From Blastococcus tunisiensis (GTDB lineage Bacteria; Actinomycetota; Actinomycetes; Mycobacteriales; Geodermatophilaceae), in NCBI RefSeq assembly GCF_900112815.1, contig NZ_FOND01000002.1, forward strand, positions 338,551-402,550: a stretch of DNA of 64,000 nt, read 5' to 3'. The position numbers were made by a program, and so were the translations under genes. The notes beneath the pieces are model-generated. The model saw only the letters and a list, made by a program, of their open reading frames with translations. It was not told the origin of the DNA and did not search any database. Positions 7,088 to 26,890 of the stretch are shown in pieces. Position 1 is the stretch's first letter, and each line of letters starts with the position of its first letter.

Positions 7088-8596
7088 GTGCTGCTGGACC
7101 ACAACGGGCTGAAGTCGGGCCTGGAGCGAGTGCCGAGGCAGCGGGCAGCCGGGGATCCCTTCGACGGGCTGCCCGTGGCCGACGCGGTCGACCGGCACGG
7201 CCGCCTCCAGTGGGTCCGGCGCTACGCCGTCTCGCTCTTCGCCTTCGAAACGTTCGTCGCGGCCGTTGCGGGCGGCGGGGTGCTGCTCGCACGACCCGAG
7301 GCCATCAGCGCTTCCGACGCGCTCTTCTGGGCGTGCCTGTTGCTCATTCCGACCTGGCCGCTGCTGCTCAGTGCAACCGGCGCCCACTCCGAGCGAGTCT
7401 TCGGAACAGGCAGCGATGAATACCGCCGCGTCGGCCGCGCCGGCTTCACGCTGATCGCGCTAGCTGCGCTCACCTCCTACGTCGGAGGTCTCGACCTCAG
7501 CCGCGCGCTGGTCCTCGTCGCAGTTCCCGCGCTGATCCTCGCCACCCTGGCCGGACGCGTCGTCGCCCGCTGGCAGCTCCGCCACCTGCGCGCCCGCGGG
7601 CTGTGCACCAAGCGCGTCGTCGTCGTCGGCCGCGGTGGCTCGGTACTCGAGCTGAGCGGACTCCTGCAGCGCGAGAACTACGCCGGCCTCGACGTCGTGG
7701 CCCTGTGCGTACCGCCGGCCGACCGCGCCCGGGTCGCCGACGCGGCAGGCGTCCCCGTCGGCGGCCTCGATCAGGTCGTGGAACTGGCCACCCGACTGCG
7801 TGCCGACACCGTTGCCGTGACGTCGGCCAGCGAGACCGCGGCGCAGTACCTGCGCCAGCTCTCCTGGCAGCTCGAGGGCAGTGGGATGGAGTTGCTCGTC
7901 GCCCCCGGGCTGATCGAGGTCGCCGGCCCGCGCCTGCACATCCGCCCCTTCGAGGGTCTGCCGCTGCTCTCGGTGGAACAGCCGCGCTTCGAGGGATGGC
8001 AGCGCATGGTCAAGGGCGTCTTCGACCGCACCAGCGCCGCGCTCGCCCTACTCGTGCTGGCACCACTGCTGCTCGGTATCGGGCTCGCGGTGCGCCTCTC
8101 CAGCCCCGGTCCCGTGCTGTACCGCCAGGAGCGTGTGGGCATCAATGGTCACTCGTTCACGATGCTCAAGTTCCGCAGCATGGTCGTGGACGCCGACAAG
8201 GTGGTCGACGAGTTCCGCGACTCCAACATCTCCGACGGGCTGCTGTTCAAGCTGCGCAAGGACCCCCGAGTCACGCGTGTGGGTCGCTGGCTCCGCCGGT
8301 TGTCTCTCGACGAGCTGCCCCAGCTGCTCAACGTTCTGGGCGGCACCATGTCGTTGGTCGGTCCCCGCCCGCCGCTTCCGGGCGAGGTCGCGCGCTACGA
8401 CTCCTCGGTGAGCCGACGACTGCTCGTCAAGCCGGGGCTTACCGGGCTGTGGCAGATCTCCGGTCGCAGCGACCTCCCGTGGGAGGAAGCTGTGCGGCTG
8501 GACCTGCGCTACGTGGAGAACTGGTCGCTCGCGCTTGACACGAAGATCATCTGGAAGACGTTCGCGGCCGTCTCGCGGGCTCGCGGCGCCTACTGA
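7088..8596 (+). CDS. Exopolysaccharide polyprenyl-phosphate sugar-1-phosphate transferase (WbaP/CpsE type)
   Basis: The priming enzyme of the EPS pathway: it transfers a hexose-1-phosphate from a nucleotide sugar to undecaprenyl or decaprenyl phosphate at the inner membrane face. The order is four to five N-terminal membrane segments, a Rossmann-like CoA_binding_3 region starting KRVVVVGRGG, a membrane helix (ALALLVLAPLLLGIGLAV), and the catalytic Bac_transf domain. That domain has SPGPVLYRQERVG, FTMLKFRSM, LSLDELPQLLNVL, MSLVGPRPP and the ending KPGLTGLWQISGRSD. GTG 7088 has an AGGGGG site; an upstream GTG at 7043 would add 15 residues but has none. Sugar specificity cannot be read from sequence. 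The gene faces the fusion gene tail to tail. Confidence 0.92.
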   Translation: MLLDHNGLKSGLERVPRQRAAGDPFDGLPVADAVDRHGRLQWVRRYAVSLFAFETFVAAVAGGGVLLARPEAISASDALFWACLLLIPTWPLLLSATGAHSERVFGTGSDEYRRVGRAGFTLIALAALTSYVGGLDLSRALVLVAVPALILATLAGRVVARWQLRHLRARGLCTKRVVVVGRGGSVLELSGLLQRENYAGLDVVALCVPPADRARVADAAGVPVGGLDQVVELATRLRADTVAVTSASETAAQYLRQLSWQLEGSGMELLVAPGLIEVAGPRLHIRPFEGLPLLSVEQPRFEGWQRMVKGVFDRTSAALALLVLAPLLLGIGLAVRLSSPGPVLYRQERVGINGHSFTMLKFRSMVVDADKVVDEFRDSNISDGLLFKLRKDPRVTRVGRWLRRLSLDELPQLLNVLGGTMSLVGPRPPLPGEVARYDSSVSRRLLVKPGLTGLWQISGRSDLPWEEAVRLDLRYVENWSLALDTKIIWKTFAAVSRARGAY

Positions 8597-8698: not shown

Positions 8699-11473
8699 TC
8701 AGTGGGGATCGACGATCTCGGAGGGGACGCCGAGGGCGACCCCTCCCGGCGCGACGTCCCGCAGGACGAAGGAACGGGCGCCGAGGAAGGCCCCGTCCCC
8801 GACGGTGATCGGCCCGAGCACCGTCGCGTGCGCTCCGAGGTAGACGCCGTCACCGATGACAGGGGCACCCGGGGTTGGGTATGCGGCGCCGACCGACGCG
8901 TACGGGGCCATGACGACGTCGTCCCCGAGCACCGCGTCGCGGACGATGATGATCCCGCGGCCGCCGTGGGCCAGCACGAGCCGCCGCCCGCAGGCCAGCT
9001 CGCCGGGGAGCTCGCAGTTCAGGCCGAGCCGGGCGAAGGCGACCAGCGGCAGGGACAGCACCCGCACCACCGAGGCCACCGGTCCGCGCCGGCGGGTGCC
9101 GTACTGATTGATCCGGAAGATGCCGGCGGCGAGCACGCTGAGCGTGCCACCCCCGCGCCGGCGGTTGACCTCGGCGTCCTCGGCCATCCAGCGGAGCAGC
9201 TCGCGGAAGGAGCCGGGGTGGGTCGGTGCCGCCGGCATGTCGACCGCTGCCCCGGGGGCTCCGGCGCCGGCCAGCCGGGTGAGCTCGCCCAGCGTTGGGG
9301 CGGTGATGAAGTCGGTGATCGGGACGTCCCGACCGACCTCGGTGCGCAGCCGGTGCAGCAGCCCCATCACCTGGCGCGACGTGCCGCCCAGGTCGAAGAA
9401 GTGGTCGTCGGGCTCGGCGGCGGCCAGCCCCAGCGTCTCGCGCCAGATGCGGGCCACGGCCCCCTGCAGGTCGCCGTCGGCGGACGGGCGGCGGGAGGGG
9501 ACGACAGCCGGCGCCGGGGGAGCCGGGAGCCGGCCGTCGAAGGCCAGGACGGCGGCGCGGATCGCGGTCAGGCTGTCGGGGTTGCGCAGGGCCGCCACGT
9601 TGACGACCGGATCACCGTTCACGGCGTCCCGCGCCGCCCGCTCCGAGCGCTTGCCGTTGTGCGTGAGAGGCAGCTCGGGGACGGCCACGACGAGCGACGG
9701 CACGTGCGCCGCCGAGGCCTTACGGCGCAGGGTGCGCCGGATCTCGCGCTCGAGTGTGCCGTCGAGACGGGCGCCGGCGGAGAGGACGAGGAGCAGCACC
9801 ATGCGCGTCGTCCCGGGCCGCGCCCCGTCCCGCTGCTCGACCGCCATCGCCTCGGTGACCGCGTCGATCCCGCGCAGCGCGGTGTAGACCTCGGCCGGAC
9901 CGATCCGGATGCCGTTGACGTTCAGGACGCCGTCGGAGCGCCCGTGCACCCGGGCTGAGCCGTCGGGCGCGAAGTCGATCAGGTCGCCGTGCGTCCAGAC
10001 ACCGGGGTGGTCGGCGAAGTAGGCGCTGTGGAACCGGCTGCCGTCCGGGTCGCGGAGGAAGTGGACCGGCCGCGACGGGAAGGGCGCGCGGCAGACGAGC
10101 TCGCCGACGGCGTCCACGACCTCCGCGCCGTCCTCGTCCACGGCGACGGTGTCCAGACCGAGGCTCCGCGCCTGGCTGCGGCCTCTGCGCACGGGCAGCT
10201 CGGGATGGCCCAGGACGAAGCAGCCGATGATGTCGGTGCCGCCGGAGATCGACTGCAGCGGCTGCGCGCCGACGGCCTCGGCGACCCAGTCGAACTGCCA
10301 GTCGTGCAGGACGGCGCCGGTCGAGAGCACCGACCGCAGCGCGCCGAGGTCGACCTCGTCGGCCGGCTGGTAGCCCTCGTCCTGGCACATCTGCAGGTAT
10401 GGCGGGCTGGTTCCGAGGACGTGCACCTTGTGGTCGGCGGCGAGCTCCCAGAGGGTCTGCGGGCCGGCGATCGGGCCGTCGTAGACCACGACGTGGGCGC
10501 CGACCGCCAGCGCCGACAGCTGCCAGTTCCACATCATCCAGGCGGTGGTCGTGTGGAAGTACAGCGTCTCGCCGGCGCGCAGGTCTCCGTGCAGGCGGTG
10601 CTCTTTCACGTGCTCGAGCAGCGTGCCGCCGGCGCCGTGGACCATCGCCTTGGGTGGACCAGTCGTGCCCGAGGAGAACATGACGAAGAGGGGGTGGTCG
10701 AAGGCTAGGCGCGGCCAGTCCACCGGGTCCCCCTCCTCCGCGGCGAGGTCGGCCCACCGCAGCACGGGGAGGTCACCGAGGTCGGGCAGCGGGCCGCCGT
10801 CCAGCACGACGAGGCGGCGCACCGTGGGTAGGCCGTCGAGCAGGGCCAGGGTGGCGTCCTCGGCGTCCTCCATGCCGGTGCGGTCCAGCAGGAGGAGCAC
10901 GGGCTCGACCTGCTCGAAGCGGCCGAGGAGCGCGGTCGTCCCCATGTCGGGGGTGGCCGTGGAGAGCGTCCCGCCCAGCGCGGCGACCGACAGCGCGGCG
11001 ATCGCCACCCCGGTGGTGTTCGGCGCAATGGCGACCACGCGCTCGCCGGCGGTAAGACCCAGGCGGGAGAGAGCGGCCGCGCCGCGCTGAACCGCCGTGC
11101 GGAGCTCACGGCGGGTCCAGGTCTCCGGCGGGCGGTCGGCGTGCACCCCGGTCAGCGCGGGTGCATCGTCGTCGGCGCCGTCGATCGGGCGCAGGAGCGC
11201 CTCGGCGTAGTTGAGCCGCACGTCCGGGAAGAAGCGCGCGGTCTCCACGTCGGAGCTGGTGCGGACGACGTCGGCCGAGCCGGACCAGGGCAGGCCGGTC
11301 CACTCCAGCAGGGTGCGCCAGAACAACTCCGGGGAGTCTACGGAGAACGCGTGCAGCGCGGAGGGGTCGCGTAGGTCCCGGCGGCTGAGCTCCTCGCAGC
11401 GGTTGCGGAAGTCCGCCAGTTGGGCAGCGGGGAACCGGCGCGCGGCCGCGGCCTCAGGAGTGGGCGTGACCAC
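8699..11473 (-). CDS. Three-domain fusion: acetoacetyl-CoA-synthetase-like adenylation domain, carrier protein, hexapeptide acyltransferase
   Basis: A 924-residue protein with an unusual architecture. Residues about 1-650 form an adenylate-forming enzyme closest to acetoacetyl-CoA synthetase: FSSGTTGPPKAMVHGAGG from 266, TTTAWMMWNWQLSALAVGA, and the late catalytic lysine in THNGKRSERAA. Residues about 655-735 are a phosphopantetheine carrier domain with DDHFFDLGGTS; the predicted attachment residue is Ser699. Residues about 750-924 are a serine-acetyltransferase-like left-handed beta-helix. The last part is strikingly similar to the stand-alone gene at 22995-23612. GTG 11473 has GGAG five bases upstream and overlaps the phosphopantetheinyl transferase gene by 20 bases. 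Inferred role: activates a short acid, holds it as a thioester, and transfers it to a sugar or lipid-linked intermediate. No condensation domain is present, so it is not a standard peptide synthetase. Confidence 0.88.
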   Translation of the reverse strand: MVTPTPEAAAARRFPAAQLADFRNRCEELSRRDLRDPSALHAFSVDSPELFWRTLLEWTGLPWSGSADVVRTSSDVETARFFPDVRLNYAEALLRPIDGADDDAPALTGVHADRPPETWTRRELRTAVQRGAAALSRLGLTAGERVVAIAPNTTGVAIAALSVAALGGTLSTATPDMGTTALLGRFEQVEPVLLLLDRTGMEDAEDATLALLDGLPTVRRLVVLDGGPLPDLGDLPVLRWADLAAEEGDPVDWPRLAFDHPLFVMFSSGTTGPPKAMVHGAGGTLLEHVKEHRLHGDLRAGETLYFHTTTAWMMWNWQLSALAVGAHVVVYDGPIAGPQTLWELAADHKVHVLGTSPPYLQMCQDEGYQPADEVDLGALRSVLSTGAVLHDWQFDWVAEAVGAQPLQSISGGTDIIGCFVLGHPELPVRRGRSQARSLGLDTVAVDEDGAEVVDAVGELVCRAPFPSRPVHFLRDPDGSRFHSAYFADHPGVWTHGDLIDFAPDGSARVHGRSDGVLNVNGIRIGPAEVYTALRGIDAVTEAMAVEQRDGARPGTTRMVLLLVLSAGARLDGTLEREIRRTLRRKASAAHVPSLVVAVPELPLTHNGKRSERAARDAVNGDPVVNVAALRNPDSLTAIRAAVLAFDGRLPAPPAPAVVPSRRPSADGDLQGAVARIWRETLGLAAAEPDDHFFDLGGTSRQVMGLLHRLRTEVGRDVPITDFITAPTLGELTRLAGAGAPGAAVDMPAAPTHPGSFRELLRWMAEDAEVNRRRGGGTLSVLAAGIFRINQYGTRRRGPVASVVRVLSLPLVAFARLGLNCELPGELACGRRLVLAHGGRGIIIVRDAVLGDDVVMAPYASVGAAYPTPGAPVIGDGVYLGAHATVLGPITVGDGAFLGARSFVLRDVAPGGVALGVPSEIVDPH

Positions 11474-12188
11474 GGGTGCTCCGCTCTGCTGCCGCCAGGG
11501 GGGCGGGGATGGAGTCGGGGAGGGTCGCGATGCTCGCGACGTGCCCCGGAGGCGCGAGCAGGGCGCGGATCCGCCAGCCCGCGACCAGTGTGTCGAACCT
11601 GCCGACACCGACGTCGAGATCGGCCAGCGTGTCGGTGAGCCCGGTGCCGAGCCCTTTGAGGAGGGACTCTTTGCGCGTCCAGCAGCGGGCGGCGGCGAGG
11701 CCGCGCGCCGCGGGCGGCAGGGCGACGAGCGCGCGGGTCTCGGCGGGGGAGAGCCAGCCCTCGGCCAGCACCTCGTCCCGCCAGTCGAGGACCGGCTCGG
11801 CGTCGATGCCGAGCCGCTGCCCGGTGCTGACGGCGACCAGCCCGACGCCCGCGCTGCGCGTGCAGCTGACGTCCGCACCCGGCACGTCGAGCTCCGGGCG
11901 GCCGTCCGCCCCCTCCCGCAGCGGTACCGCCTCCGGGAGGAGGCCCAGCACGTCGCCGGCCAGGCGGCGCAGGCCCGCCCGGGTCAGGATCCGCTGCCGG
12001 GCGACCACGGGAGCCGCGCGGTCGGCGTAGGCCAGTTCGGCAGGCGACAGCAGCAGCCGCGCGCGGGCGACGGCAGTGTCGTCCGCGTCCAGGCGCACGG
12101 TCGAAACAGCGGCCTCCCTCAGCCGCGCGGACCTGGGGACGATCGGCGGGGCGCGATGTCCTGCGACCGCGACCGACATGATGGACAT
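11454..12188 (-). CDS. 4'-phosphopantetheinyl transferase (Sfp/Gsp type)
   Basis: Transfers phosphopantetheine from CoA to the conserved serine of carrier proteins. The 244-residue product has the two family signatures, GIDAE at about 127-131 (Mg2+ ligands) and WTRKESLLK at about 170-178; the preceding motif reads SCTRSAG. ATG 12188 is the first plausible start; ATG 12179, three residues later, has better spacing to GGGAG and may be the true one. It overlaps the adenylation/carrier fusion by 20 bases on the same strand. The carrier domain of that fusion is therefore its likely dedicated substrate. The pair diverges from mfd. Confidence 0.9.
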   Translation of the reverse strand: MSIMSVAVAGHRAPPIVPRSARLREAAVSTVRLDADDTAVARARLLLSPAELAYADRAAPVVARQRILTRAGLRRLAGDVLGLLPEAVPLREGADGRPELDVPGADVSCTRSAGVGLVAVSTGQRLGIDAEPVLDWRDEVLAEGWLSPAETRALVALPPAARGLAAARCWTRKESLLKGLGTGLTDTLADLDVGVGRFDTLVAGWRIRALLAPPGHVASIATLPDSIPAPLAAAERSTRGHAHS

Positions 12189-16194: not shown

Positions 16195-16821
16195 ATGGTG
16201 GCCCCCGATCCCTTCAGTGTGCTCGTGGTGTGCACGGGGAACGTCTGCCGTTCCCCGATGGCCGAACGCGTGGGCCGGGCGCACGTGGCCCCGTTGCTTC
16301 CCGACCCGGCCGTCCTCCGGCTCGAGAGCGCCGGAACTCGGGCCGTCGTCGGCGCGGGCATGGATCTGGCCAGCGCCCGCGTCCTGCAGTCACTGGGCGG
16401 GGACCCCGGCGGCTTCGTGGCACGTCAGCTGACCGACCAGATCGCGGGCTCGGCCGACCTCGCTCTGACGATGACCCGGGACCACCGCCGCGACGTCCTC
16501 GCCCGCGCCCCGCGCGCCCTGTCACGTACCTTCACCCTCGTCGAGGCGGCCTGCCTGCTCGACCTCCTCGGCCCCGACGTCGAGTTCCTGGACGCCGGTC
16601 CGGCCGACCGCGCCCGCGCCCTCGTCAAGCACATGGCCAAGGCCCGGGCCTTGCGCCCGAGCAGCGCCACAGACGACGTCGCCGACCCGATCGGCCAGCC
16701 CGACGAGGTCCACGCCACGGTGGGGGAGACCATCGCCGCCGCGATCCGTCCTGTCCTCGGCAGGTTCGCCGAACTCGTCAGCTCCCCGGCCGGAGCTCCG
16801 GCCGCGGACTGGCGGGCGTGA
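16195..16821 (+). CDS. Low-molecular-weight protein-tyrosine phosphatase
   Basis: Cytosolic phosphatase that probably removes phosphate from the Wzc-like tyrosine kinase encoded at 26891, controlling polymer length or export. The P-loop CTGNVCRSP is at 13-21 (nucleophile Cys13, Arg19), and the aspartate loop reads VADPIGQP near 163. At 208 residues it is some 50 longer than the typical 150-160. The extra part lies between the core and the DP loop and contains an Arg/Ala-rich stretch (DRARALVKHMAKARALR). The start at ATG 16195 lacks a good ribosome site. The stop overlaps the start of the next gene (GTGA), so the two are translationally coupled. Confidence 0.85.
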   Translation: MVAPDPFSVLVVCTGNVCRSPMAERVGRAHVAPLLPDPAVLRLESAGTRAVVGAGMDLASARVLQSLGGDPGGFVARQLTDQIAGSADLALTMTRDHRRDVLARAPRALSRTFTLVEAACLLDLLGPDVEFLDAGPADRARALVKHMAKARALRPSSATDDVADPIGQPDEVHATVGETIAAAIRPVLGRFAELVSSPAGAPAADWRA

Positions 16822-18365
16822 CGGTCCCTCCCGGCCCGCACTCCGCCGAGAGTTCGGATCCACCCGCAGTAGGACGGCGCGCCCTGGGCCGCCGCGGGTT
16901 CGTCGTCACCGCACTCGCCGGCGGCACCGTGGTCGGCGCGGCGGCGGCGGCCACCCAGCGTCCCGGCGGCCGCGGCGACGTGGCGACACCGGTCGACGCA
17001 CCCACCGGCGTCACGGTTCTCGCCGGCCCCGGGATCGACGTCTCCGGGACGCGCGACAGCACAGCCGCCCTCCAAGCCACCGTCGACGCCGCTGCCGAAG
17101 GCGCGCAGCTGTGGCTGCCCGGGGGGCTCTACCTGGTCGACGGGATCACCCTCCGGCGCGGGCAGGTCCTGACCGGGCCGTCGGGGCGCTCCTACACCGG
17201 CCGATCCGAGAGCGGGGCGCGGCTGCGGGCCCGCTCCGTCGACTCGGCCGGGCCGGTACTGACCGTCGGCGAACTCGGCGTCGTCACCGACATCGCCGTC
17301 GAGGGGGAGGGGCGGGCCCAGCCGGCAGTCCGCCCCGCCGGTATCGGCGTGGTCCTGGAGCGGGTCACCATGGCCGAGGCATCGGTCGGCTTCGACGCCG
17401 CCTACGTGAGCGGCAGCATCCTCACCGAGTGCCAGATCCACCAGAACGGGACCGGCATCAAGGACATCGTCGACTCCATCGTGCAAAGCACCGTCATCAA
17501 CGCCAACGAGGGCGACGGGATCTCCCTGGCCTCCGGCGCCAACGACAACACGTTCCTCGGCAACAAGGTCGAGTGGAACGACGGCTACGGGGTCCAGGCA
17601 TTTCAGGCCGAGCACAACGTGCTGATCGGTGGCGTCATCGACCGCAACGGCAAGGCCGGCGTGCGACTGGTCGAGTGCTCGCACAGCACGGTCGTGGGCG
17701 CGGTGCTGCGCCGCAACGGAAGGCTCGCCGAGGACACGCCGGACGACGACTGTCACCTCTTCCACGCCGGGTGCACCGGGTTGGTCGTCACCGGCCTCAG
17801 CACGAACTCCGGCAGGGACGACGGCGGGACGAGCGGCTACGACTCCCCGGCGGTCGCCCTTCGCGCTGACGGCGGCACCGATGTGACGATCACCGGCAAC
17901 GACCTGACCGGCTCGACGTCCGGGACCGCCATCGCGACTGCGGCACCCGGCGTCCGCGGGACGCACCTGCTCAACGCCGGGCCCGGCCTGCAGGCCGCGA
18001 CCGGGATCCAGCTGCGGGTCGGCGTCGCGGACCTCGCGGTGGCGGGTGGGTCCACCGAGCCGGCCGTGTTCGCCGTCGACGCCGGGGACGTGGACGGCCC
18101 GGGCCGCGTCTACCGGTTGCTGCTGTCGTACCGGAGCGGCGGGACAGGCACCCGCGGCGCGGCCGAGGCCTTGGTGCTGGTCGGCCGAGGGGACGCAGGG
18201 GCCGAGGCCACCCTCGGTGCAACCGACGACCGGATCGGTGTGGAGTTCGGGCCCACCGGACCGATGCGCGTGACCGCCGACGTCACCGCCGACGGGCGGG
18301 TACTGACCGTCTCGGTCACCAACACAGGTGCCGCCGCGCTCCGGATCCGGCTGGAACTCCTCTAA
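16818..18365 (+). CDS. Tat-exported right-handed beta-helix (pectate-lyase-like) protein
   Basis: A 515-residue secreted protein. The N-terminus carries twin arginines (RRALGRRGFVVTALAGG from residue 20) followed by an Ala-rich hydrophobic stretch, a Tat signal. From about 55 comes the pectate-lyase-superfamily opening (GIDVSGTRDSTAALQATVDAA, LWLPGGLYLVDG). It is followed by parallel beta-helix rungs with repeated Asn-rich turns such as NDNTFLGNKVEWNDGYGV and EHNVLIGGVIDRNGKAGV. A beta-sandwich-like C-terminus ends at 18365. Such proteins cleave or bind polysaccharides; here it probably acts on the EPS made by neighbouring genes. Catalytic residues cannot be assigned. The start overlaps the phosphatase stop. 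Confidence 0.82.
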   Translation: MTVPPGPHSAESSDPPAVGRRALGRRGFVVTALAGGTVVGAAAAATQRPGGRGDVATPVDAPTGVTVLAGPGIDVSGTRDSTAALQATVDAAAEGAQLWLPGGLYLVDGITLRRGQVLTGPSGRSYTGRSESGARLRARSVDSAGPVLTVGELGVVTDIAVEGEGRAQPAVRPAGIGVVLERVTMAEASVGFDAAYVSGSILTECQIHQNGTGIKDIVDSIVQSTVINANEGDGISLASGANDNTFLGNKVEWNDGYGVQAFQAEHNVLIGGVIDRNGKAGVRLVECSHSTVVGAVLRRNGRLAEDTPDDDCHLFHAGCTGLVVTGLSTNSGRDDGGTSGYDSPAVALRADGGTDVTITGNDLTGSTSGTAIATAAPGVRGTHLLNAGPGLQAATGIQLRVGVADLAVAGGSTEPAVFAVDAGDVDGPGRVYRLLLSYRSGGTGTRGAAEALVLVGRGDAGAEATLGATDDRIGVEFGPTGPMRVTADVTADGRVLTVSVTNTGAAALRIRLELL

Positions 18366-18459: not shown

Positions 18460-19851
18460 GTGCCCGCATCGCTGAGCTCCCCTCACCCGGTGGACGCCCC
18501 GGCCGGACCCGGCCCCGAGGTGACCGCGGGGCTCGACGGCGGCCGCGGCAGGATCGCCCGGATTCGGCGGCGGGCCATGGGGGGTGCGGGGACGGCCGAC
18601 CGGGCGAGCTGGTCCGAACGGGTCCTCTACGGAGCACTGCTCCTGCTCGCCGTCACCGGCGTGGTCTCGCCCGGCGAGTACAACTACAACCTGCTGCCCG
18701 CCGCCTCCCTTCTCGAGCTGGCGCTGATCGGCTGCGCCGCACTCCTGGCCACCCGTCTCACGGCGGGTGCTTGGCCGGTCCTGGTTCTCGGCGGCCTGTA
18801 CGTCTTCGTAAAGACGCTGACCTGGTTCACCTACAGCTCGGCGAGCGTCGTCGACTTCGTACAGGCCTACAAGGCCTACATCTACCTCGTGGCGCTGGCC
18901 TTCTTCGTCGGGAAGAAGGTCTTCTCGGCCCGCCGCCTGGCGAACTTCACGACTGTGCTCGTCGGTGTCTTCCTGCTGAAGTACGGCTACTCCGTCGTCC
19001 TGGGCCTCGCGCAGCGCCCGGGCGTCTACATCGAGAACAACTTCGAGCTGATCCTGCTCATGGGCCTGGTCTACCTGGCCTGGCCTCACCTCGGCGACCG
19101 CCGGAACTGGGTCTTCCTCGCTCTGGCAGCCACCGTGCTGCTGTCCGGGTCCCGCAGCGCCGCGCTCGCGCTGCTCGTGGTCTACGTCTTCCTCTACGTC
19201 CGGACGAGCAACCGCACCTGGCCATTGCACATCGCGGGTGTCGCGGCGGTCGGCTACGCCGTCTTCGAAGTCATCACCAGCCGGCTCAGCCAGGACGGTG
19301 GTCTGTCGAGCCTGGACCGGCTCAACTTCCTCCAGGTGTATCTGGGCGACGTCGACAGCTGGCCGGTCTGGCAGTTCTTCACCGGCTCCGCCCCGCTGAC
19401 GCCGCTGTCCTCCGGCGCGTGCGCCGACCTGTCGTACTACGCACCGCTGTTCAGCTCCACCGACCCCGGTGTCTGTTACTCGGTCATTCTGCACTCGTTC
19501 GTGCTGCGCGCCCTGTTCGACCACGGGATCCTCGGCCTGGTCCTGCTGTACGCGCTCGTCTGGCTCGGCCTGCGCCTCTCGGGGGTCGGCGTCCGTGACG
19601 CGCTCGCGTTGCTGGCGCCCATCACCGCCAGCGCCTTCTCGGTCTCGGCCTTCAACAGCGTCTTTACCGCGATCCTGCTGGCCATCGCCATGGGCCTGGA
19701 CCGCAGCGGTCCTCCGGTCGCGACGTCGCCGCGACCGGAGCGCGGGCGCCGGCGTCGGTGGCCGGTCGATAAGGGAGAGGACCGTCGACGGCCGGGTGCA
19801 TCCCGCCGCGCTGCTGCTGTCCGGCGTCGGGTCGTCCGCGCCCTGCCGTAG
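18460..19851 (+). CDS. O-antigen/EPS polymerase-like integral membrane protein (Wzy type)
   Basis: A 463-residue protein with a cytosolic N-terminus of about 55 residues and roughly ten to twelve membrane helices. A long periplasmic loop between about 285 and 345 contains FFTGSAPLTPLSSGACADLSYY, the arrangement of Wzy/WaaL-type polymerases that join repeat units outside the membrane. VLLSGSRSAALALL resembles the O-antigen ligase/polymerase signature around a conserved arginine. The C-terminal 45 residues are Arg-rich and cytosolic. Start GTG 18460 follows the beta-helix gene by 94 bases. Assigned by topology and context; the family is too divergent for a symbol. Confidence 0.8.
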   Translation: MPASLSSPHPVDAPAGPGPEVTAGLDGGRGRIARIRRRAMGGAGTADRASWSERVLYGALLLLAVTGVVSPGEYNYNLLPAASLLELALIGCAALLATRLTAGAWPVLVLGGLYVFVKTLTWFTYSSASVVDFVQAYKAYIYLVALAFFVGKKVFSARRLANFTTVLVGVFLLKYGYSVVLGLAQRPGVYIENNFELILLMGLVYLAWPHLGDRRNWVFLALAATVLLSGSRSAALALLVVYVFLYVRTSNRTWPLHIAGVAAVGYAVFEVITSRLSQDGGLSSLDRLNFLQVYLGDVDSWPVWQFFTGSAPLTPLSSGACADLSYYAPLFSSTDPGVCYSVILHSFVLRALFDHGILGLVLLYALVWLGLRLSGVGVRDALALLAPITASAFSVSAFNSVFTAILLAIAMGLDRSGPPVATSPRPERGRRRRWPVDKGEDRRRPGASRRAAAVRRRVVRALP

Positions 19852-19989: not shown

Positions 19990-22572
19990 TCACTCCGGGA
20001 CGGGTGCGCTAGGAGGAGCGTTCGTTTCGCCCTGCGGCTCCCGGCCGGCATCGGCCCGGGGCTCGTCCACTGTTGCCACCTCCGGGGTGGGGGGCGGCTC
20101 GGTCGCCGAGGGCACCGCTGCCTCCGGAGCAGCGGCAGGGGCAGCGGGTGCGGTGACCGGGGGAGCGGGCGCAGCGGCCACCTCCGGAGTGACGTCGGCC
20201 GGCGCCGTCCAGGCCTGGACCTCCGACAGCCCGGCGTTGCCGGTCCACTCGCCGACCGAGGTCAGCGTGATGCGCACCCAGCTGACCGAGCGCGCAGGGA
20301 AGTCCACCGCGACCGCCTCGCCGGCGTTGTCGAGCGCCGGCACGGCGACGGTCGAGCCATCGGAGAACGTGAGGGTCCCCCCGGTCACGTGCTCCCACTC
20401 GTTCGGCCGGTTGTGCAGCACCACACGAGTCAGTTCGACCGGAGCGGTCCAGTCCAGCTGCAGCCAGGCACCGGCCCGCTCACCGCGGGAAGCCCATTCG
20501 GCGGTGTAGTCGCCGGGGTAGCCATCGATGACGCCGTCGATGGCCTTGGCCGCCGTCTGGCCGTGCTCGGTGGTCTCCGAGGACGCCGTCGCCGTCGCGG
20601 ACCGGGCGACGTTCGTTCCGAGAGCCGGTTCGGGCTGCGGCTCCGGTTCGGGCTGCGGCTCCGGCTCCGGCTCCGGTTCGGGCTGGGGCTGCGGCTCCGG
20701 GTCGGGCGTGCTCCCCGCAGTCCACGTCTGCACCTCGGACAGGCCGGCGTTCGACGTGTACGTGCTGACCGAGGTCAGGGTGACCCGCACCGAGGTGGTC
20801 GCACGGGCCGGAAAGTCGACCACCGCGGCCGAGCCGGCGTTGTCGAGCGCCGGGACGATCACCGTGGAGCCGTCGGAGAAGGTGATCGTGGCGCCGGTGA
20901 CCTGGTCGTACTCGTTCGGCCGGTCGTGGAGCACCAGCCGGGTGAGTGTCGCCGGCGAGGCCCAGGTCAGTTGGAGCCAGCTTCCTGCACCCTCACCCTG
21001 CGTCGCCCACTCCGCGGTGTGGTCGCCGGGGTAGCCGTCGATGACGCCGTCCACGGCCTTGACCGCAGTCTGGCCGGTCTCGGTGTTCTGCGACGACGCC
21101 GTCACAGCGGCAGACGCGGCCACGTTCGACCCGAAGGTCGGTTCAGGTTCCGGTTCCGGCTCCTGGACAGAGCCGTCGGTGAACGCCTCGACCTCGGACA
21201 GGCCGGCGTTCGCCGTGCTGCCGCTCACCGCGGTGAGGTCGATGCGCACCGAGGTGGTGGTGCGTGCGGTGAAGGTGATCGGGGTCGCGGCGCCGCTGTT
21301 CTCCAGCTTACCGGTGGTCGCCGTGGAGCCGTCGGAGAAGGTGATCGTCGCGGCGGTCACCTGGTCGGAGTCGTTGGGCCGGTCGTGCAGCACCAGGTGG
21401 TTGAGCGCGACGGGGGACGCCCAGGTCAGTTGCAGCCAGCTGCCCGCACCCTCACCCTGCGTCGCCCACTCGGCGGTGTGGTCACCGGGCCACCCGTCGA
21501 CGACGCCGTCCACGGCCTTGACCGCAGTCTGGCCGGTCTCGGTGTTCTGCGACGACGCCGTCACCGTGGCCCGCGACGCGACGTTGGTGCCCAGGCTCGG
21601 GGGCGGCTCGACCGCGCCCTCACCCGAGGCGAGGTATGAGCGCTGCAGCCATGCACCCTCGGCGCCCCACGCGCACTCCTGCACCGAGGTGCAGACGGCG
21701 GAGTCGGGGGCGGCATAGGCGAACAGCGCGGCACGCTTGGCGTCGAGGTCGGTGCCGACGACGTTGGCCGGCAGCTCCTCGCTGTCGTAGCCCATGTACC
21801 CGGTGAACGCGACCGAGGGGACGGAGACCGTGTGTGCCTCGGCCGCGAGGCGGCCCACTGCGTAGTGGTCGCTGTGGTCGCCCTCGCCGAAGTCGCCCAG
21901 GTGGTCCAGGGACCGGACCACCGAGGGGGAGGCCGAGGCCATGAGCTCGCCGAGCGTGCTCACCAGCTCGGCGCGGGTGTAGGTCTGCGTCGGGGAGCTC
22001 TCGACGGTGGCGAGGGCGGAGATCTCACCGGTGTAGAGCTGCTGCAGGCTGGTGTAGTCCGAACGGGGGCTGCCGGTCCCCTCGGGGTAGCCGTCGGGCA
22101 GCCGCATGAAGTACAGCTCGACGCTCGGCCGGCCCACGAGCTCGCTGCGCACGATCGACTTGCCCGCGACGGTGACGCGGGAGGTGGTCCAGTTGCTGGC
22201 GACGCCGGCCATCTGGGCGTACGCGGCGCGGGCGCCGACCTCGCGGCCTTGGTAGTAGGCGTCGGTGCCGCCCGCGTCGGCCGCGGTCACGTACACCGTC
22301 GTCGAGCACCGGCCGGCACGGATGTCCCTGAGGATCGACGGGTTGACGAAGAAGAAGTCGTCATCGGGGTGGGCCACGACGTTAACGGAACCTGCCCCGC
22401 ACGTGGCTGCGCCGGCTGGCCCGGCGGTGAGGAGGACCGCCGCGACCATCCCGACGAGGACGAGGAGGGCGCGGACGGCACCCGGCCGGCGGACCCCGAC
22501 CACGGAGGCGTCACCGCGCCGCTGACGACGCACTGCCTCGGTCGAGTTCCTTGCGAACAACGGGCCAGCCAC
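19990..22572 (-). CDS. Secreted PIG-L/LmbE-family deacetylase with three F5/8-type C domains
   Basis: An 860-residue exported enzyme. An Arg-containing signal region and hydrophobic helix (ALLVLVGMVAAVLLTAGPAGA) end near 54. The catalytic domain follows, with the zinc motif HPDD at 68-71 and a second ligand motif GDHSDHYAVGR, as in GlcNAc deacetylases. Three discoidin-like (F5/8 type C) domains of about 150 residues follow. They are separated by Pro-Glu linkers, the longest alternating PE/PQ over roughly 28 residues, and a Pro/Ala/Glu-rich tail ends the protein. The second and third domains share a perfect 63-base DNA repeat. GTG 22572 has GAGGGGGA upstream. Probably de-N-acetylates amino sugars of the EPS while bound to it. 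It is transcribed away from the acyltransferase gene. Confidence 0.87.
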   Translation of the reverse strand: MAGPLFARNSTEAVRRQRRGDASVVGVRRPGAVRALLVLVGMVAAVLLTAGPAGAATCGAGSVNVVAHPDDDFFFVNPSILRDIRAGRCSTTVYVTAADAGGTDAYYQGREVGARAAYAQMAGVASNWTTSRVTVAGKSIVRSELVGRPSVELYFMRLPDGYPEGTGSPRSDYTSLQQLYTGEISALATVESSPTQTYTRAELVSTLGELMASASPSVVRSLDHLGDFGEGDHSDHYAVGRLAAEAHTVSVPSVAFTGYMGYDSEELPANVVGTDLDAKRAALFAYAAPDSAVCTSVQECAWGAEGAWLQRSYLASGEGAVEPPPSLGTNVASRATVTASSQNTETGQTAVKAVDGVVDGWPGDHTAEWATQGEGAGSWLQLTWASPVALNHLVLHDRPNDSDQVTAATITFSDGSTATTGKLENSGAATPITFTARTTTSVRIDLTAVSGSTANAGLSEVEAFTDGSVQEPEPEPEPTFGSNVAASAAVTASSQNTETGQTAVKAVDGVIDGYPGDHTAEWATQGEGAGSWLQLTWASPATLTRLVLHDRPNEYDQVTGATITFSDGSTVIVPALDNAGSAAVVDFPARATTSVRVTLTSVSTYTSNAGLSEVQTWTAGSTPDPEPQPQPEPEPEPEPQPEPEPQPEPALGTNVARSATATASSETTEHGQTAAKAIDGVIDGYPGDYTAEWASRGERAGAWLQLDWTAPVELTRVVLHNRPNEWEHVTGGTLTFSDGSTVAVPALDNAGEAVAVDFPARSVSWVRITLTSVGEWTGNAGLSEVQAWTAPADVTPEVAAAPAPPVTAPAAPAAAPEAAVPSATEPPPTPEVATVDEPRADAGREPQGETNAPPSAPVPE
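21043..21564. repeat. 63-bp perfect direct repeat inside the deacetylase gene
   Basis: Bases 21043-21105 recur exactly at 21502-21564, a spacing of 459 bases (153 codons), which equals one F5/8-type domain plus linker. The flanking sequence is also similar, so the domain was duplicated recently or is kept alike by gene conversion. Confidence 0.85.
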
Positions 22573-22994
22573 GTAAGTCCCCCTCGGTGCATCTGATCTC
22601 GCGATGAGACCACGGACGGTAAGCGAGTTTCGGCCGGATTCGGCCGCCTGCCTGCGGTTTCTCCGTCCATGGAGTGAGGCCAAGGAGTCACTTGATCACT
22701 CTGCGTGTTTGGGCCGCTGCGCCCCGCTGCAGGAGCGGGATGGCGCTGGGCGGGGCGGTCCACCCCGCGGTGCCCGGCCCGTCGTTGGTCGTCGTCCGGG
22801 AGAAGAGGGTCGGGAATGCATCCAGGTGACGCTCGTTCGCCTGTTCGCCGTTGCGGGGGCCATCCCCCAAGGGAGTGACGGAGGGCTCCGAACAAAGGCT
22901 TTTCCGTCCGAGATGAATTTAGCTCTAGTTGCTTCTCGTGATGTGCGACTCGTGCTTTCCGGGTCGTATACGGAAACGACGACAAAGGATCCCT
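22573..22994. promoter_or_regulatory. 422-base divergent intergenic region of the EPS locus
   Basis: No convincing gene is present. The right end (about 22890-22990) is far more AT-rich than the surroundings and carries TTTCCG (22956-22961) and CGGAAA (22971-22976) around GTCGTATA, an inverted repeat that covers a possible -10 element just before the acyltransferase. It must contain promoters for the deacetylase (minus strand) and for the acyltransferase to flippase genes (plus strand). Exact promoters are uncertain. Confidence 0.5.
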
Positions 22995-23612
22995 ATGGCG
23001 GCGACGCATCCGGCCTCTCTCAAGGAACTCCTCGAGTGGATGGCCGAGGACATCGAGGTAAACCGCCGTCGCGGTGGCCTGCTGAGTGTCGTCGCAGTCG
23101 TGGCGTTCCGGCTGAACCAGTTCGGCGTGCGCGTCTCCGGGCCCGCCTCCGCCCTTGCCCGCGTGGTCTCCCTGCCCCTCGTCGCGTTCGCGCGGCTGGG
23201 CATCGGCGTGGAGATCCCCGGTGGCCTGGCGTGCGGTCGGCGCCTGGTCCTCGCGCACGGTGGTCGCGGGGTCATCTTCCACCCCGACGCCGTCCTGGGG
23301 GACGACGTCGCTGTCGCCTCCGGCTGCGGTGCCGGTGTCGCCTTCCCGCACCCGGGAGCGCCGGTAATCGGCGATCGGGTCTACTTCGGCGCCAACTCGA
23401 GCATCATCGGGGACGTCACGGTCGGCGACGACGCGGTCATCGGCGCCCACACGCTGGTCACCAGGTCCGTGCCCGCCGGCATGGTGGCCGTCGGCGTCCC
23501 GGCGAAGATCCTGGGCCCCGCGCCCGAGCGTGCCGCCCCGACCATCCCCGCGCAGGCGGACGGGGCCGCCGACGACGCCGCGGTCGGCACCCTCCGGCGG
23601 TCCTCGTGGTGA
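22995..23612 (+). CDS. Hexapeptide-repeat acyltransferase, serine-acetyltransferase-like
   Basis: A 205-residue left-handed beta-helix transferase that most likely acetylates a sugar of the EPS repeat unit from acetyl-CoA. It begins with a helical segment (ELLEWMAEDIEVNRRRGG) and then the helix core with LACGRRLVLAHGGRGV, the catalytic-type histidine motif, and GVAFPHPGAPVIGD. It closes with MVAVGVPAKI. The whole protein is closely similar, region by region, to the C-terminal domain of the fusion at 8699-11473. ATG 22995 has AAAGGA five bases upstream. It overlaps the next gene by four bases and heads a tightly packed four-gene set. Confidence 0.85.
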   Translation: MAATHPASLKELLEWMAEDIEVNRRRGGLLSVVAVVAFRLNQFGVRVSGPASALARVVSLPLVAFARLGIGVEIPGGLACGRRLVLAHGGRGVIFHPDAVLGDDVAVASGCGAGVAFPHPGAPVIGDRVYFGANSSIIGDVTVGDDAVIGAHTLVTRSVPAGMVAVGVPAKILGPAPERAAPTIPAQADGAADDAAVGTLRRSSW

Positions 23613-24367
23613 CGGCTGTCCCCGCCGAGCCCGCCCAGGCGGCCGAGTGGTTCGCCCAGTTGCTCGCCGACAACCTGACGGCAGGGACCGGCGGCACCCT
23701 CACCTGGCTCAACCACTACACCGCCCTGCAGTCCATGCGGGCCGGGGTGCCGATCGACCGGTTCGACTACCTGGGCCTCGACGGGCTCCTGCTGTGCCGC
23801 CTGGTCCGGACCGAGTGCGAGCGGACCAGCGCCGACCTGCTCATACCGGCGTTGCTCTCCCGGACGAGTGGCCTGCGGATCGCGCTGATCGGCTCCACGG
23901 CGGAGACCCTGCGCACCGTGGCCGAGAAGATCGAGGGGCAGAACGAGCACCGGGTGGTCCTCGTCCGCGACGGTTACGACGGACTGCCGGAACCGACGGA
24001 CCTTCGGCGGCAACTGCGGGTGGCCCGGGCACAGGTCGTCGTCGTGGGTCTCGGTGCCCCGCGCCAGGACTTCTACGTGCTCGACATCGCAATGCCCGGC
24101 ATGCTGGTCTTGACCTGCGGCGGCTGGCTGGACCAGTTCGCCGGGGACCGTGACTACTACCCGGCCTGGGCCTACCCGCTGCACCTGAACTGGCTCGTCC
24201 GGCTGGCCCGTGAGCCGAAGCGGCTCTGGAGGCGGTACACCGTCGAAGCGGTCCGGGCGGTCGCCGAGAGGTCGGCGTTGACCGAGTACGTCACCGGTCT
24301 CGGTGGCGAGTCCCTGCGAGCGGCCGGCGGCGCCTCGGTGCACATCGCCGACCGGCCCGCTGCCTGA
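23609..24367 (+). CDS. WecG/TagA/CpsF-family glycosyltransferase (GT26)
   Basis: A 252-residue cytosolic glycosyltransferase that adds an N-acetyl-mannosamine-type or related sugar to the lipid-linked primer. Family marks are LTWLNHYTALQSM with DYLGLDG near the N-terminus, IALIGSTAETLRTVAEKI, VVVVGLGAPRQDFYV and the late CGGWLDQFAGDRDYYPAW. The GTG start at 23609 (or 23606) overlaps the preceding stop as GTGA, indicating translational coupling. The ending, with Trp, Leu and Arg-rich helices (LARE, RLWRRY), matches the family's membrane-associating tail. Donor sugar is not predictable. Confidence 0.85.
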   Translation: MTAVPAEPAQAAEWFAQLLADNLTAGTGGTLTWLNHYTALQSMRAGVPIDRFDYLGLDGLLLCRLVRTECERTSADLLIPALLSRTSGLRIALIGSTAETLRTVAEKIEGQNEHRVVLVRDGYDGLPEPTDLRRQLRVARAQVVVVGLGAPRQDFYVLDIAMPGMLVLTCGGWLDQFAGDRDYYPAWAYPLHLNWLVRLAREPKRLWRRYTVEAVRAVAERSALTEYVTGLGGESLRAAGGASVHIADRPAA

Positions 24368-24377
24368 TGGGGGAACC

Positions 24378-25493
24378 GTGCTGATCAGCGTGCAACCGCA
24401 CCTCCGCTTCGGGGGTGCGGAACGGCAGACCGTCCTGCTCGCCAACGCCCTGCAGCGGCGGGGGAATCGCACCGCCGTCGTGCTCCACGAGAAGGTCGGC
24501 GGCCTCCTGCCCGAGCTGCACCCTGACGTCCCGGTCGAGGAGCTCGGCCTGGACAACCACCTGCTCACGCCGGTGGTCGCCCGGCGGCTGCGGTCGATGC
24601 TGGACCGCAGGTTCCGGGACGGCGAGAAGTCGATGGTCTCGCTGCACCTGTGGGGCAGCGTCCTCGCCGGCGCCCTGGCCGAGCGGCGCCGGGACGACGA
24701 CTTCACCTTCGTCTACTACGAGGACCTCGATCCCTCCGAGCATGCCCGGTTCATCCGGCTCGGCGGGCTCAAGCAGCGGCTGGTGCGCCGCGTCTACCGC
24801 CGCAGCGACGTGGTCGTGGCGAACACCGAGCGGGTGGCCGACGCGATGGTGCGCGTCTACGGCCTCGAGCGCCGTCCTAGGGTCATCAGCCCCGCCGTGG
24901 ACCTGCTCGCCCTCCGCGCCGCCGCGGAGGCGCGGGCCCCGGCCGCGGAGCGCGTGCGACCGCTCAAGGTCGTCACAGTCGGCTCGCTGGTGCCCCTCAA
25001 GGGCCTCGACGTCGTCTACGCGGGGCTGCTCGCATCCGGGCTGGAGTGCGAGTGGCACGTCGTCGGCGAGGGATCGCTGGGCGGCTGGCTGGACTCCCTG
25101 CCCACCGACGGTCCCGTCGTCGTCCGGGCCCACGGTGGAACCCCCCGGCCCTACGAGCTGGTCCGGGACGCCGACCTGCTGGTCCACGGCTCGCACTCCG
25201 AGGCGCTCGGACTCGTCCTGCTCGAGGCGATCGGGGTGGGTGTGCCCGTGGTGAGCGCAGCCGCCCTGGGCCCCGCGGAGCTCGCTGCGACGCTGGGCGA
25301 CCGGCCTGAGATCCTCAGCCTGTTCCCGGTGGGCCAGGCCGATGCGCTCGCCGTCCTGCTGAAGGAGCGCGCCGCGGAGCTGGACGAGACGCCAAGCCTC
25401 GACGAGATGCAGCGCCACATCGCCCGCTTCTCCATCGAGGCGACCGCCGACGCATGGACGGAGCTGGCCGACGAGCATGGCTGCTCCCTCTAG
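24378..25493 (+). CDS. Glycosyltransferase family 4-type enzyme
   Basis: A 371-residue GT-B fold retaining glycosyltransferase. The N-terminal domain starts VLISVQPHLRFGGAERQTVLLA, the typical GGAE donor/acceptor loop of GT4 enzymes. The C-terminal domain has the EX7E-type region HGSHSEALGLVLLEAIGVGVPVV. GTG 24378 lies ten bases after the previous stop behind GGGGGAA, and the 3' end overlaps the flippase gene by 17 bases. It presumably adds one sugar of the EPS repeat unit on the cytosolic membrane face. Confidence 0.86.
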   Translation: MLISVQPHLRFGGAERQTVLLANALQRRGNRTAVVLHEKVGGLLPELHPDVPVEELGLDNHLLTPVVARRLRSMLDRRFRDGEKSMVSLHLWGSVLAGALAERRRDDDFTFVYYEDLDPSEHARFIRLGGLKQRLVRRVYRRSDVVVANTERVADAMVRVYGLERRPRVISPAVDLLALRAAAEARAPAAERVRPLKVVTVGSLVPLKGLDVVYAGLLASGLECEWHVVGEGSLGGWLDSLPTDGPVVVRAHGGTPRPYELVRDADLLVHGSHSEALGLVLLEAIGVGVPVVSAAALGPAELAATLGDRPEILSLFPVGQADALAVLLKERAAELDETPSLDEMQRHIARFSIEATADAWTELADEHGCSL

Positions 25494-26760
25494 CGACGGC
25501 GCGCCGGCGCCCCGCACGACGCTGCCCTGGCGGCGGCTCGCGTCCTTCGCCAGCCTGCCGATGATCTCGCTGGTCTCCTCGGTTGTGATCATCCCGGTCA
25601 TCGCCTCGGTCGCCGGCGCCCAGGGCTGGGCTGCGGTCGCGCTCGGTCAGGCCCTCGGCGCGGGTGCGGCGACCGTCCTCCAGTACGGCTGGGGGTTCAC
25701 CGGGCCGACCCTGCTGGCGCCCCTCGGCCCCACCGAACGGGCCCGTCTGCTGTGGGTCAGCATCCTGTCGCGGCTGATGCTCGCCGTGATCCTCATTCCT
25801 GCGGCAGCCGGTGTCGCCGCCTTCCTGGCGCCGGACGGCCGGGTGCTGCTCGCCGCGCTCACGACTGTGGCGACGGCGACCTTCGGGCTCTCGGCCTTCT
25901 GGTTCTTCGTCGGCACGGGGCGGGCAAGTGACGCCGCGCGGTACGAGACGGTGCCGCGGCTGCTGGCCGTCTCGTCTTCCGCCGCGCTGGTCCTCGCGAC
26001 CGGCGATCCCCTCTACTACCCGGTGGTGTTCCTGGCCGGCCAGATGCTGGCCCTGGGCTGGCTCACGGTGAAGCTGGCGTCGATCTCGTTCTCCGGGCAG
26101 ACCTGGTCGCAGGCGTTCGCTGCCTTCCGCACCCAGCGCTACGCGGCCGGAAGCGACGTCGTCGTCGCCGTCTCCCAGTCGGTGCCCACCAGCATCGTGG
26201 CCGGAGTCGCGCACGACGCGCTCGCTGTTTTCGCCGCGGGGGACCGGCTGCAGAAGCTCGCCCAGTCGGCGATCCAACCGCTGTTCAACGCCTTCCAGGG
26301 CTGGGTGTCGGAGTCGCCCCGAGAGAGCCGGGCGAGCCGGATGAAGCTCTCCGTCCTCGCCACCTCGGTCTCCGGGGTGCTCGTGGGCGCCGTCCTCGCA
26401 GTCGGGCTGCCACTCGTCGACTACGTGCTCTTCGCCGGTGAGGTGGAGGTTCGCTACGACGTCGCCATCCCGGTCGGCATCGCGTTGGCGCTGTACTCGT
26501 TGACGTCCTCCATCAACTTCAACGTCCTGGCACCGGCAGGGCACACCGCGCACATCTTCCGCAGCACCGCTGCCGGTGCCGTCGTCTCCGTCGTCGCCGT
26601 CAGTCTCCTGGCGCACGAGTTCGCTGCCCCGGGCGGCGCGTGGGCGATCGTCCTGGCGCAGCTGACCGTGCTCGTGGTCCAGCTCTCCGGACGTCGCCGT
26701 CCGCAGCGCGCCGGCGCTCCCGCGCCGGCCGAGGTCGCCGGCGGGGTGCCGGTCGCCTAG
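25477..26760 (+). CDS. Polysaccharide flippase-like membrane protein (Wzx/MATE-like)
   Basis: A 427-residue protein with about ten to twelve hydrophobic segments and few charged loops, in the topology of lipid-linked oligosaccharide flippases. FASLPMISLVSSVVIIPVIA opens the first helices, and FAAGDRLQKLAQSAIQPLFNAFQGW resembles the polysaccharide-synthesis family motif between helices 7 and 8. ATG 25477 lies within the end of the glycosyltransferase gene, so the two are co-translated. It would move finished repeat units outward for the polymerase at 18460. Assigned from topology, motif and context. Confidence 0.83.
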   Translation: MAAPSSDGAPAPRTTLPWRRLASFASLPMISLVSSVVIIPVIASVAGAQGWAAVALGQALGAGAATVLQYGWGFTGPTLLAPLGPTERARLLWVSILSRLMLAVILIPAAAGVAAFLAPDGRVLLAALTTVATATFGLSAFWFFVGTGRASDAARYETVPRLLAVSSSAALVLATGDPLYYPVVFLAGQMLALGWLTVKLASISFSGQTWSQAFAAFRTQRYAAGSDVVVAVSQSVPTSIVAGVAHDALAVFAAGDRLQKLAQSAIQPLFNAFQGWVSESPRESRASRMKLSVLATSVSGVLVGAVLAVGLPLVDYVLFAGEVEVRYDVAIPVGIALALYSLTSSINFNVLAPAGHTAHIFRSTAAGAVVSVVAVSLLAHEFAAPGGAWAIVLAQLTVLVVQLSGRRRPQRAGAPAPAEVAGGVPVA

Positions 26761-26890
26761 ACATCACCCGAATGGTGCAGGCGTTCCCCGGATCGGGGGA
26801 CGCGCGCATTGCAGCCGTGACACGCTATGTCCAACAGAGGAATTCGTACGGCAGAGGCCTTTCCGGCCAATTCACACATGGGGGTAATTC

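Follow-up and report, generated by a model that had tools for sequence, protein, structure and literature searches.

A putative carrier-tethered acyltransferase in an exopolysaccharide locus of Blastococcus tunisiensis, with a beta-helix in the place of a thioesterase

Described systems closest to the fusion

The subject of this report is a 924-residue protein encoded in a stretch of 64,000 nucleotides from Blastococcus tunisiensis (the whole of this stretch is referred to as the window), which joins an adenylation (A) domain resembling acetoacetyl-CoA synthetase (AACS), a carrier (T) domain and a left-handed beta-helix (LbH) transferase in one chain near genes for an exopolysaccharide (EPS). 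The best reading is that this fusion derives from a nonribosomal peptide synthetase (NRPS)-like enzyme of the order A, T and thioesterase (TE), whose TE exit appears to have been replaced by an EPS-type LbH. Among known systems, D-alanylation by the Dlt proteins similarly combines adenylation, a carrier and transfer to an envelope polymer, however, its carrier is separate and its transferase is of the membrane-bound DltB type. LpxA and LpxD are themselves LbH transferases, but they use a free acyl carrier protein, whereas the fusion has a carrier that it would load itself, and LpxD models score far under their cut-off on the fused LbH (25 vs. 242.5). LpxA is described as taking the acyl chain that it adds to a sugar nucleotide from a carrier protein (PMC6408518).

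NRPS-like A-T-TE enzymes of the quinone/furanone synthetase type also carry an A domain, a carrier and one terminal domain per chain, and the closest relatives of the fusion end in Pfam Thioesterase. The A and T domains of the fusion are those expected of such an enzyme, but a C-terminal TE is lacking, with 1.5 bits for the TE profile against 287.3 bits for an LbH profile that includes the fusion itself. Non-reducing fungal NRPS-like enzymes are reported to carry a C-terminal TE and, as far as that account goes, use aromatic alpha-keto acids, unlike the fusion with its LbH end and AACS-like A domain (PMC9047271). In the Pls/PosA poly-amino-acid synthetases, A-T is followed by a C-terminal part that has been modelled with three left-handed beta-helices in an arrangement like that of sugar-nucleotide acyltransferases (PMC10522769). 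That part is described as about 730 residues long with six transmembrane helices, behind the A domain of a polymerizing amino-acid enzyme, whereas the fusion has about 190 residues downstream of its carrier; it thus lacks a Pls/PosA-type terminal domain, and no such family is among the Pfam and NCBIfam matches shown. The O-antigen cluster of Vibrio cholerae O1 encodes an adenylating enzyme, RfbL, and a carrier, RfbK, in a tetronate pathway, but these are separate proteins and attachment to the carrier is presented there as a proposal (PMC12208996).

A literature search of open-licence papers, mainly their titles and the starts of abstracts, found no A-T-LbH enzyme for polysaccharide acylation. 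The original prediction, made from the letters of this stretch alone, had called the acylation route one not known as a described system, which is too strong: RfbL/RfbK and PosA/Pls each share part of the idea and are partial precedents, so that the combination appears new but does not form a new class. The formation of O-acyl-serine in azaserine biosynthesis was considered as a further precedent and set aside, as a Cy domain and not an LbH is described as performing that step (PMC10445470).

Architecture of the fusion and its phosphopantetheinyl transferase

The fusion and the 4'-phosphopantetheinyl transferase (PPTase) gene upstream of it occupy the following positions of the window.

8699..11473, minus strand: A-T-LbH fusion, 924 residues (open reading frame with Pfam and NCBIfam domain matches)
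9554..11443, minus strand: AACS-like A domain, residues 11-640 (P-loop FSSGTTG at 266-272; THNGKRSE at 604-611)
9275..9457, minus strand: T domain, residues 673-733 (Ser699 codon at 9377-9379)
8705..9238, minus strand: LbH (CysE/WcaB-like) transferase, residues 746-923 (His836 codon at 8966-8968)
11454..12188, minus strand: PPTase (ACPS, 5.6e-11; start uncertain, 12188 or 12098)

The frame at 8699-11473 is single and open from a GTG start. The domain search proposed with the original prediction returned AMP-binding (residues 103-464, 3.4e-39), AMP-binding_C (531-608), PP-binding (673-733, 2.1e-14) and Hexapep (871-903, 1.4e-08), and the LGGTS motif at residues 695-699 places the carrier serine at Ser699. 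The earlier description of an AACS-like domain, a carrier with Ser699 and a beta-helix in one frame overlapping a PPTase gene is therefore confirmed by the open reading frame, by Pfam and NCBIfam, and by an overlap in which the PPTase stop at 11454 falls 20 nt within the start of the fusion. At 572.8 bits the A domain exceeds the cut-off of the acetoacetate--CoA ligase equivalog TIGR01217 (520.9), and it narrowly misses the broader subfamily model NF002937 (636.5 vs. 639). With a carrier fused to the A domain, however, the reaction may yield no free CoA ester.

The identity of the PPTase is confirmed, and its start is uncertain: 12188 is one of two options, and a codon-usage gene finder written for this analysis prefers 12098. 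The stretches LGIDAEP and WTRKESLLKG, which we take to be PPTase signatures, correspond to LGIDVEA and WTRKEAVLKG in B. xanthinilyticus. A PPTase gene adjoins the A-T gene in 38 of the 55 loci with a gene-finder-called A-T gene, and the ends overlap in 30 of these 38; at least two places were counted twice from two collections, one of the 38 lies on the other strand, and the counts cover these 55 loci alone, the gene finder having been trained on this window and being poor on loci of lower GC.

The best models for the fused LbH all fall below their curated cut-offs (EpsC 75.5 of 150, CysE 61 of 210.65, WcaB 39.5 of 194.65), with NeuD also among the nearest and below its cut-off. Nevertheless, the helix keeps a catalytic-type His, a point on which the original prediction depended: in an alignment with solved serine acetyltransferases, His836 (LAHGG) falls on the His of their LDHATG motif, to which we ascribe the catalytic role, and its equivalent is kept in 10/10 LbH copies. 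CysE- and WcaB-type transferases are trimers, and CysE binds serine through D157, R192 and H193. Neither these positions nor the second CysE His (of the HP pair) are kept in the alignment of the fused LbH. A serine acetyltransferase was consequently dropped as a candidate, the CysE/EpsC scores being far under the cut-off and the serine-binding positions not kept. Domain order, intact loading motifs, PPTase motifs and the presence of an LbH in the place of the TE are established from sequence.

Structure models add little. An AlphaFold model from a 35-row alignment was good for A and T, with pLDDT (the per-residue confidence of the model) mostly >85 in the A domain and Ser699 heading a helix at 699-713; overall this model is neither for nor against the proposal. 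A single-sequence model was useless (mean pLDDT 34.8).

Apparent exchange of the thioesterase for the beta-helix

The original prediction missed that the protein has a common form, and this form is A-T-TE. We found 42 copies of the A-T protein in 35 of 112 genomes of the family (E <1e-260; next match 1.9e-125), and just two end in an LbH: those of the window genome (G000) and of B. xanthinilyticus DSM 46842 (G023). The other 40 include 39 that could be aligned, all with a TE-type tail, and one frame-shifted copy (G091). Pfam named Thioesterase in 6/6 A-T-TE copies scanned, including three dead ones. A genome scan kept 80 named loci out of 253 relatives; 74 have a TE by custom profile and one an LbH (B. 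xanthinilyticus). The TE motif G-x-S-x-G-(G/A) is kept in 71 of these 74, the other three being Blastococcus sp. TF02A-30 (G014), Geodermatophilaceae URHA0031 (G092) and Klenkia sp. PcliD-1-E (G080). A third terminal domain of about 300 residues occurs in four of the 80 loci, three from Methylobacterium and one from Bradyrhizobium (L115, L135, L136, L123; L136 is identical to L135, two of the three from Methylobacterium); three of the four were scanned, and one of these gave a weak GNAT match (20.9 bits, cut-off 20.7). On the metagenome contig L097 the A-T frame ends right after the carrier serine, beside an unread base. The A-T-TE form is probably also the ancestral one.

The A-domain core motifs are nearly identical across the TE, GNAT-like and LbH forms, and when 21 proteins of this A-T-X family (X being any terminal domain) were compared with five annotated acetoacetate--CoA ligases, a 90%/100% rule left five positions within residues 1-640 that separate the two groups. 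The acid is therefore probably the same while the exit changes, and the family would probably be one of a single acid with changing exits.

In the frame-shifted G091 copy (L028, L053) the shift lies between A and T in the assembly, and the TE motif GYSFGG is intact in the other frame. Two further A-T-TE genes, on plasmids of Cupriavidus and Caballeronia (L167, L168), are annotated 'acetoacetate--CoA ligase' with no mention of carrier or thioesterase domains. Some genes of that name (these are the two seen) thus encode carrier-loading NRPS-like enzymes.

The TE Ser and His are kept in 36 of the 39 aligned A-T-TE copies, and both are lost in G014, G092 and G080. The LbH family was detected in 5 of the 112 genomes (E 1e-30), with two copies each, and the five are these three together with G000 and G023; no further genome with the family was found in a phylum sample of 396 (E 1e-35; eight candidates scored per genome, so that rare distant forms could escape). 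In G092 and G080 the dead-TE gene has LbH copy a as its immediate neighbor, and in G014 copy a lies within the same EPS cluster. In G000 and G023 the LbH is present in full in the fusion, beginning with its own THP... start, while copy b stands alone in 5/5 LbH genomes near a WecG-type transferase gene; in the window, copy b is 62% identical to the fused LbH. With copies taken as independent and kinship uncorrected, the chance of two such sets of five coinciding among 42 copies is 1.2e-6. Two relatives provide the counterpart: Blastococcus sp. CT_GayMR19 (G029, of the same genus as the window genome) and Goekera deserti (G065) have the EPS cluster without LbH, and in both the A-T-TE gene retains an intact TE and is located away from the cluster (on another contig; 35-38 kb away). 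As TE decay or loss matches LbH presence and the TE is intact where the cluster lacks an LbH, one loaded carrier seems to have two alternative exits, LbH and TE. If this is right, living relatives still display the stages of the change, from an intact TE through a dead TE with free LbH to the fusion.

The best A-T tree sets G092 and G080 (support 100/94) apart from G014 with G000 and G023 (100/99), which implies two changes. Two independent TE losses were considered as proof of function and dropped: a single origin is not rejected, and with at most two independent pairs a sign test is impossible. On the best LbH tree the fused domain stands beside the b branch (85/91). Copy b was rejected as its donor, since the b copies group together (96/95) and leave the fused pair outside.

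A different account of the same domains would be two enzymes in one chain, with the LbH an ordinary acetyl-CoA-dependent EPS O-acetyltransferase and A-T loading an acid for another partner or having lost its role. The nearest models of the LbH (EpsC, CysE, NeuD and WcaB, all under cut-off) and the stand-alone copy b in the same locus agree with it. However, A and T are under purifying selection with their loading motifs intact, and this account does not explain why a dead or missing TE coincides exactly with the LbH pair; we consider it unlikely.

The full architecture recurs in B. xanthinilyticus at 82% identity, and between the two genomes the ratio of nonsynonymous to synonymous divergence (dN/dS) is 0.115 for the LbH, 0.149 for A, 0.28 for T and 0.50 for the linker, at a dS of about 0.5-0.7 for the domains. 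Of the three domains of the fusion the LbH is the most tightly constrained, and the ratios point to purifying selection on all of them. The recurrence at such identity with low dN/dS argues that the fusion is more than chance. Were it decaying or neutral and without function, its rarity would be expected (2 of 112 family genomes, and no A-T-X match at E 1e-140 in 392 other genomes of the class sample, with two candidates scored per genome, so that rare distant forms could escape), as would the fast evolution of linker and PPTase. Yet dN/dS of 0.115-0.28 in the three domains at such dS, and retention in two genomes assigned to different genera, make this very improbable.

The exopolysaccharide locus and a proposed mechanism

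The EPS genes of the window, with the stand-alone LbH among them, are as follows.

7088..8596, plus strand: sugar-1-phosphate transferase, presumably of WcaJ type (Bac_transf 4.7e-66)
16195..16821, plus strand: putative low-molecular-weight phosphatase-like protein, CTGNVCRSPMAE; it adjoins EPS genes in relatives
16929..18365, plus strand: EPS-cluster protein with a right-handed beta-helix (Beta_helix 2.2e-12)
18490..19851, plus strand: Wzy/O-antigen-ligase-like protein (Wzy_C 0.00026, under the gathering score)
19990..22503, minus strand: PIG-L deacetylase with F5/8 type C domains (domain search)
22989..23612, plus strand: stand-alone paralogous LbH, copy b (gene-finder start 23040)
23606..24367, plus strand: WecG/TagA/CpsF glycosyltransferase (domain search)
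24378..25493, plus strand: GT4 glycosyltransferase (domain search)
25561..26760, plus strand: putative Wzx-like flippase (no Pfam match; label from context)
26891..28468, plus strand: Wzz and, presumably, BY-kinase-like chain-length protein (CbiA and AAA_31; Wzz 24.3 bits, just below the cut-off of 25.5)

In all five LbH genomes the LbH pair and the A-T gene lie at or inside one common EPS cluster; in G014 the neighbor of the A-T gene is the BY-kinase gene, and in G092 and G080 it is LbH copy a, followed by Wzy. The Wzy-like gene occurs in 7 of the 112 family genomes, all seven with an A-T-X gene, compared to 35 of 112 overall (1.9e-4, uncorrected). The placement beside EPS genes that the original prediction proposed is borne out, in that TE decay or loss, LbH and EPS-cluster membership concur in 5/5 genomes, and therefore the EPS link is stronger than proximity. 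The strongest evidence for a possible joint action of A-T and LbH on EPS comes from comparing the cluster with LbH (five genomes) and without it (G029 and G065).

It could alternatively be proposed that the fusion makes a diffusible small molecule (e.g., an O- or N-acyl amino acid or an acyl sugar) and that its adjacency to EPS genes is positional, as such genes often lie near mfd. This would fit the lone A-T-TE gene of two annotated Burkholderiales records, the CysE-like character of the LbH, and the presence of mfd in the stretch at 14 of 21 family loci examined, whatever the EPS type. It is harder to reconcile with the loss of the CysE serine-binding positions given above, with the single EPS cluster common to all five LbH genomes, and with an A-T gene that borders the BY-kinase gene or LbH copy a and then Wzy. 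We regard this explanation as distinctly unlikely.

Several observations count against a carrier-tethered transferase acting on EPS. The Mfd gene separates the fusion from most EPS genes of the window, and intact A-T-TE copies are often beside mfd with other EPS-type genes near, so that EPS proximity alone proves little; on the two annotated Burkholderiales plasmids the A-T-TE gene is isolated, without EPS neighbors. A common origin of the TE loss and LbH swap is not rejected (approximately unbiased (AU) test, p 0.274), and thus the TE-LbH association may rest on one event, while grouping of the fused LbH with copy a is likewise not rejected (AU p 0.354). Residues 788-924 have pLDDT <50 in the 35-row model, leaving the beta-helix unmodelled. 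The PPTase evolves fast, with 58% identity and dN/dS of 0.54 between the two fusion genomes (82% identity for its fusion partner). Finally, most CysE/WcaB-type LbH enzymes use acetyl-CoA, and an acetyl-CoA site is possible in the fused LbH.

Taking both sides into account, the original interpretation is partly supported, and we give roughly even odds to the fusion being a self-loading, carrier-tethered acyltransferase that acts on an EPS precursor. In this mechanism the PPTase would prime Ser699, and the AACS-like A domain would adenylate a short carboxylic acid and attach it to the phosphopantetheine arm. The fused LbH would then act in the place of the thioesterase, using His836 as its general base to pass the acyl group on to a precursor of the neighboring EPS, at a hydroxyl (or amine); where the LbH genes are separate, copy a (perhaps b) may serve the same carrier in trans. 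We infer the acid, the sugar acceptor and the carrier-to-LbH transfer, the last from the TE/LbH exchange. That the LbH unloads the carrier seems reasonably probable, and, should it do so, EPS is the likely acceptor. A short keto or hydroxy acid is a guess based on the family resemblance to AACS, and we would guess at a C4 beta-keto or beta-hydroxy acid. (R)-3-hydroxybutanoyl groups are recorded on bacterial surface polysaccharides (PMC3726653), which makes a C4 acid plausible and goes no further.

A broader and more tentative scenario, which we consider possible, treats the A-T core, whose range extends from actinobacteria to proteobacteria, as a portable cartridge for acid activation that can be given different exits (mostly TE; GNAT-like in Methylobacterium and Bradyrhizobium; LbH here). 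One EPS cluster would have captured it in five Geodermatophilaceae, where an LbH pair, possibly in the form of mixed trimers, replaced a decaying TE and was finally fused, giving one-protein, CoA-independent acylation of a surface polysaccharide. If the proposed mechanism is right, an NRPS-like enzyme has been re-tooled into a polysaccharide-decorating enzyme through an exit-domain swap. The fusion would also allow a direct test of whether an NRPS-type carrier can supply LbH transferases with acyl groups, and it might serve as a module for placing chosen acyl groups on glycans without CoA.

Two minor observations concern the cluster itself. The PIG-L deacetylase with F5/8 type C (DUF7402) repeats is present in 6 of the 7 Wzy-like genomes within the stretches examined, and is not in that of G029. 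Between G000 and G023, dS is 0.68-0.70 for the WcaJ-type gene and the fusion and 0.31-0.60 for the other genes up to 18365; the Wzy-like, GT4, Wzx-like and BY-kinase-like genes (18490-19851 and 24378-28468) have a dS of 0.13-0.29, and these lower values perhaps reflect a recent exchange of the EPS core.

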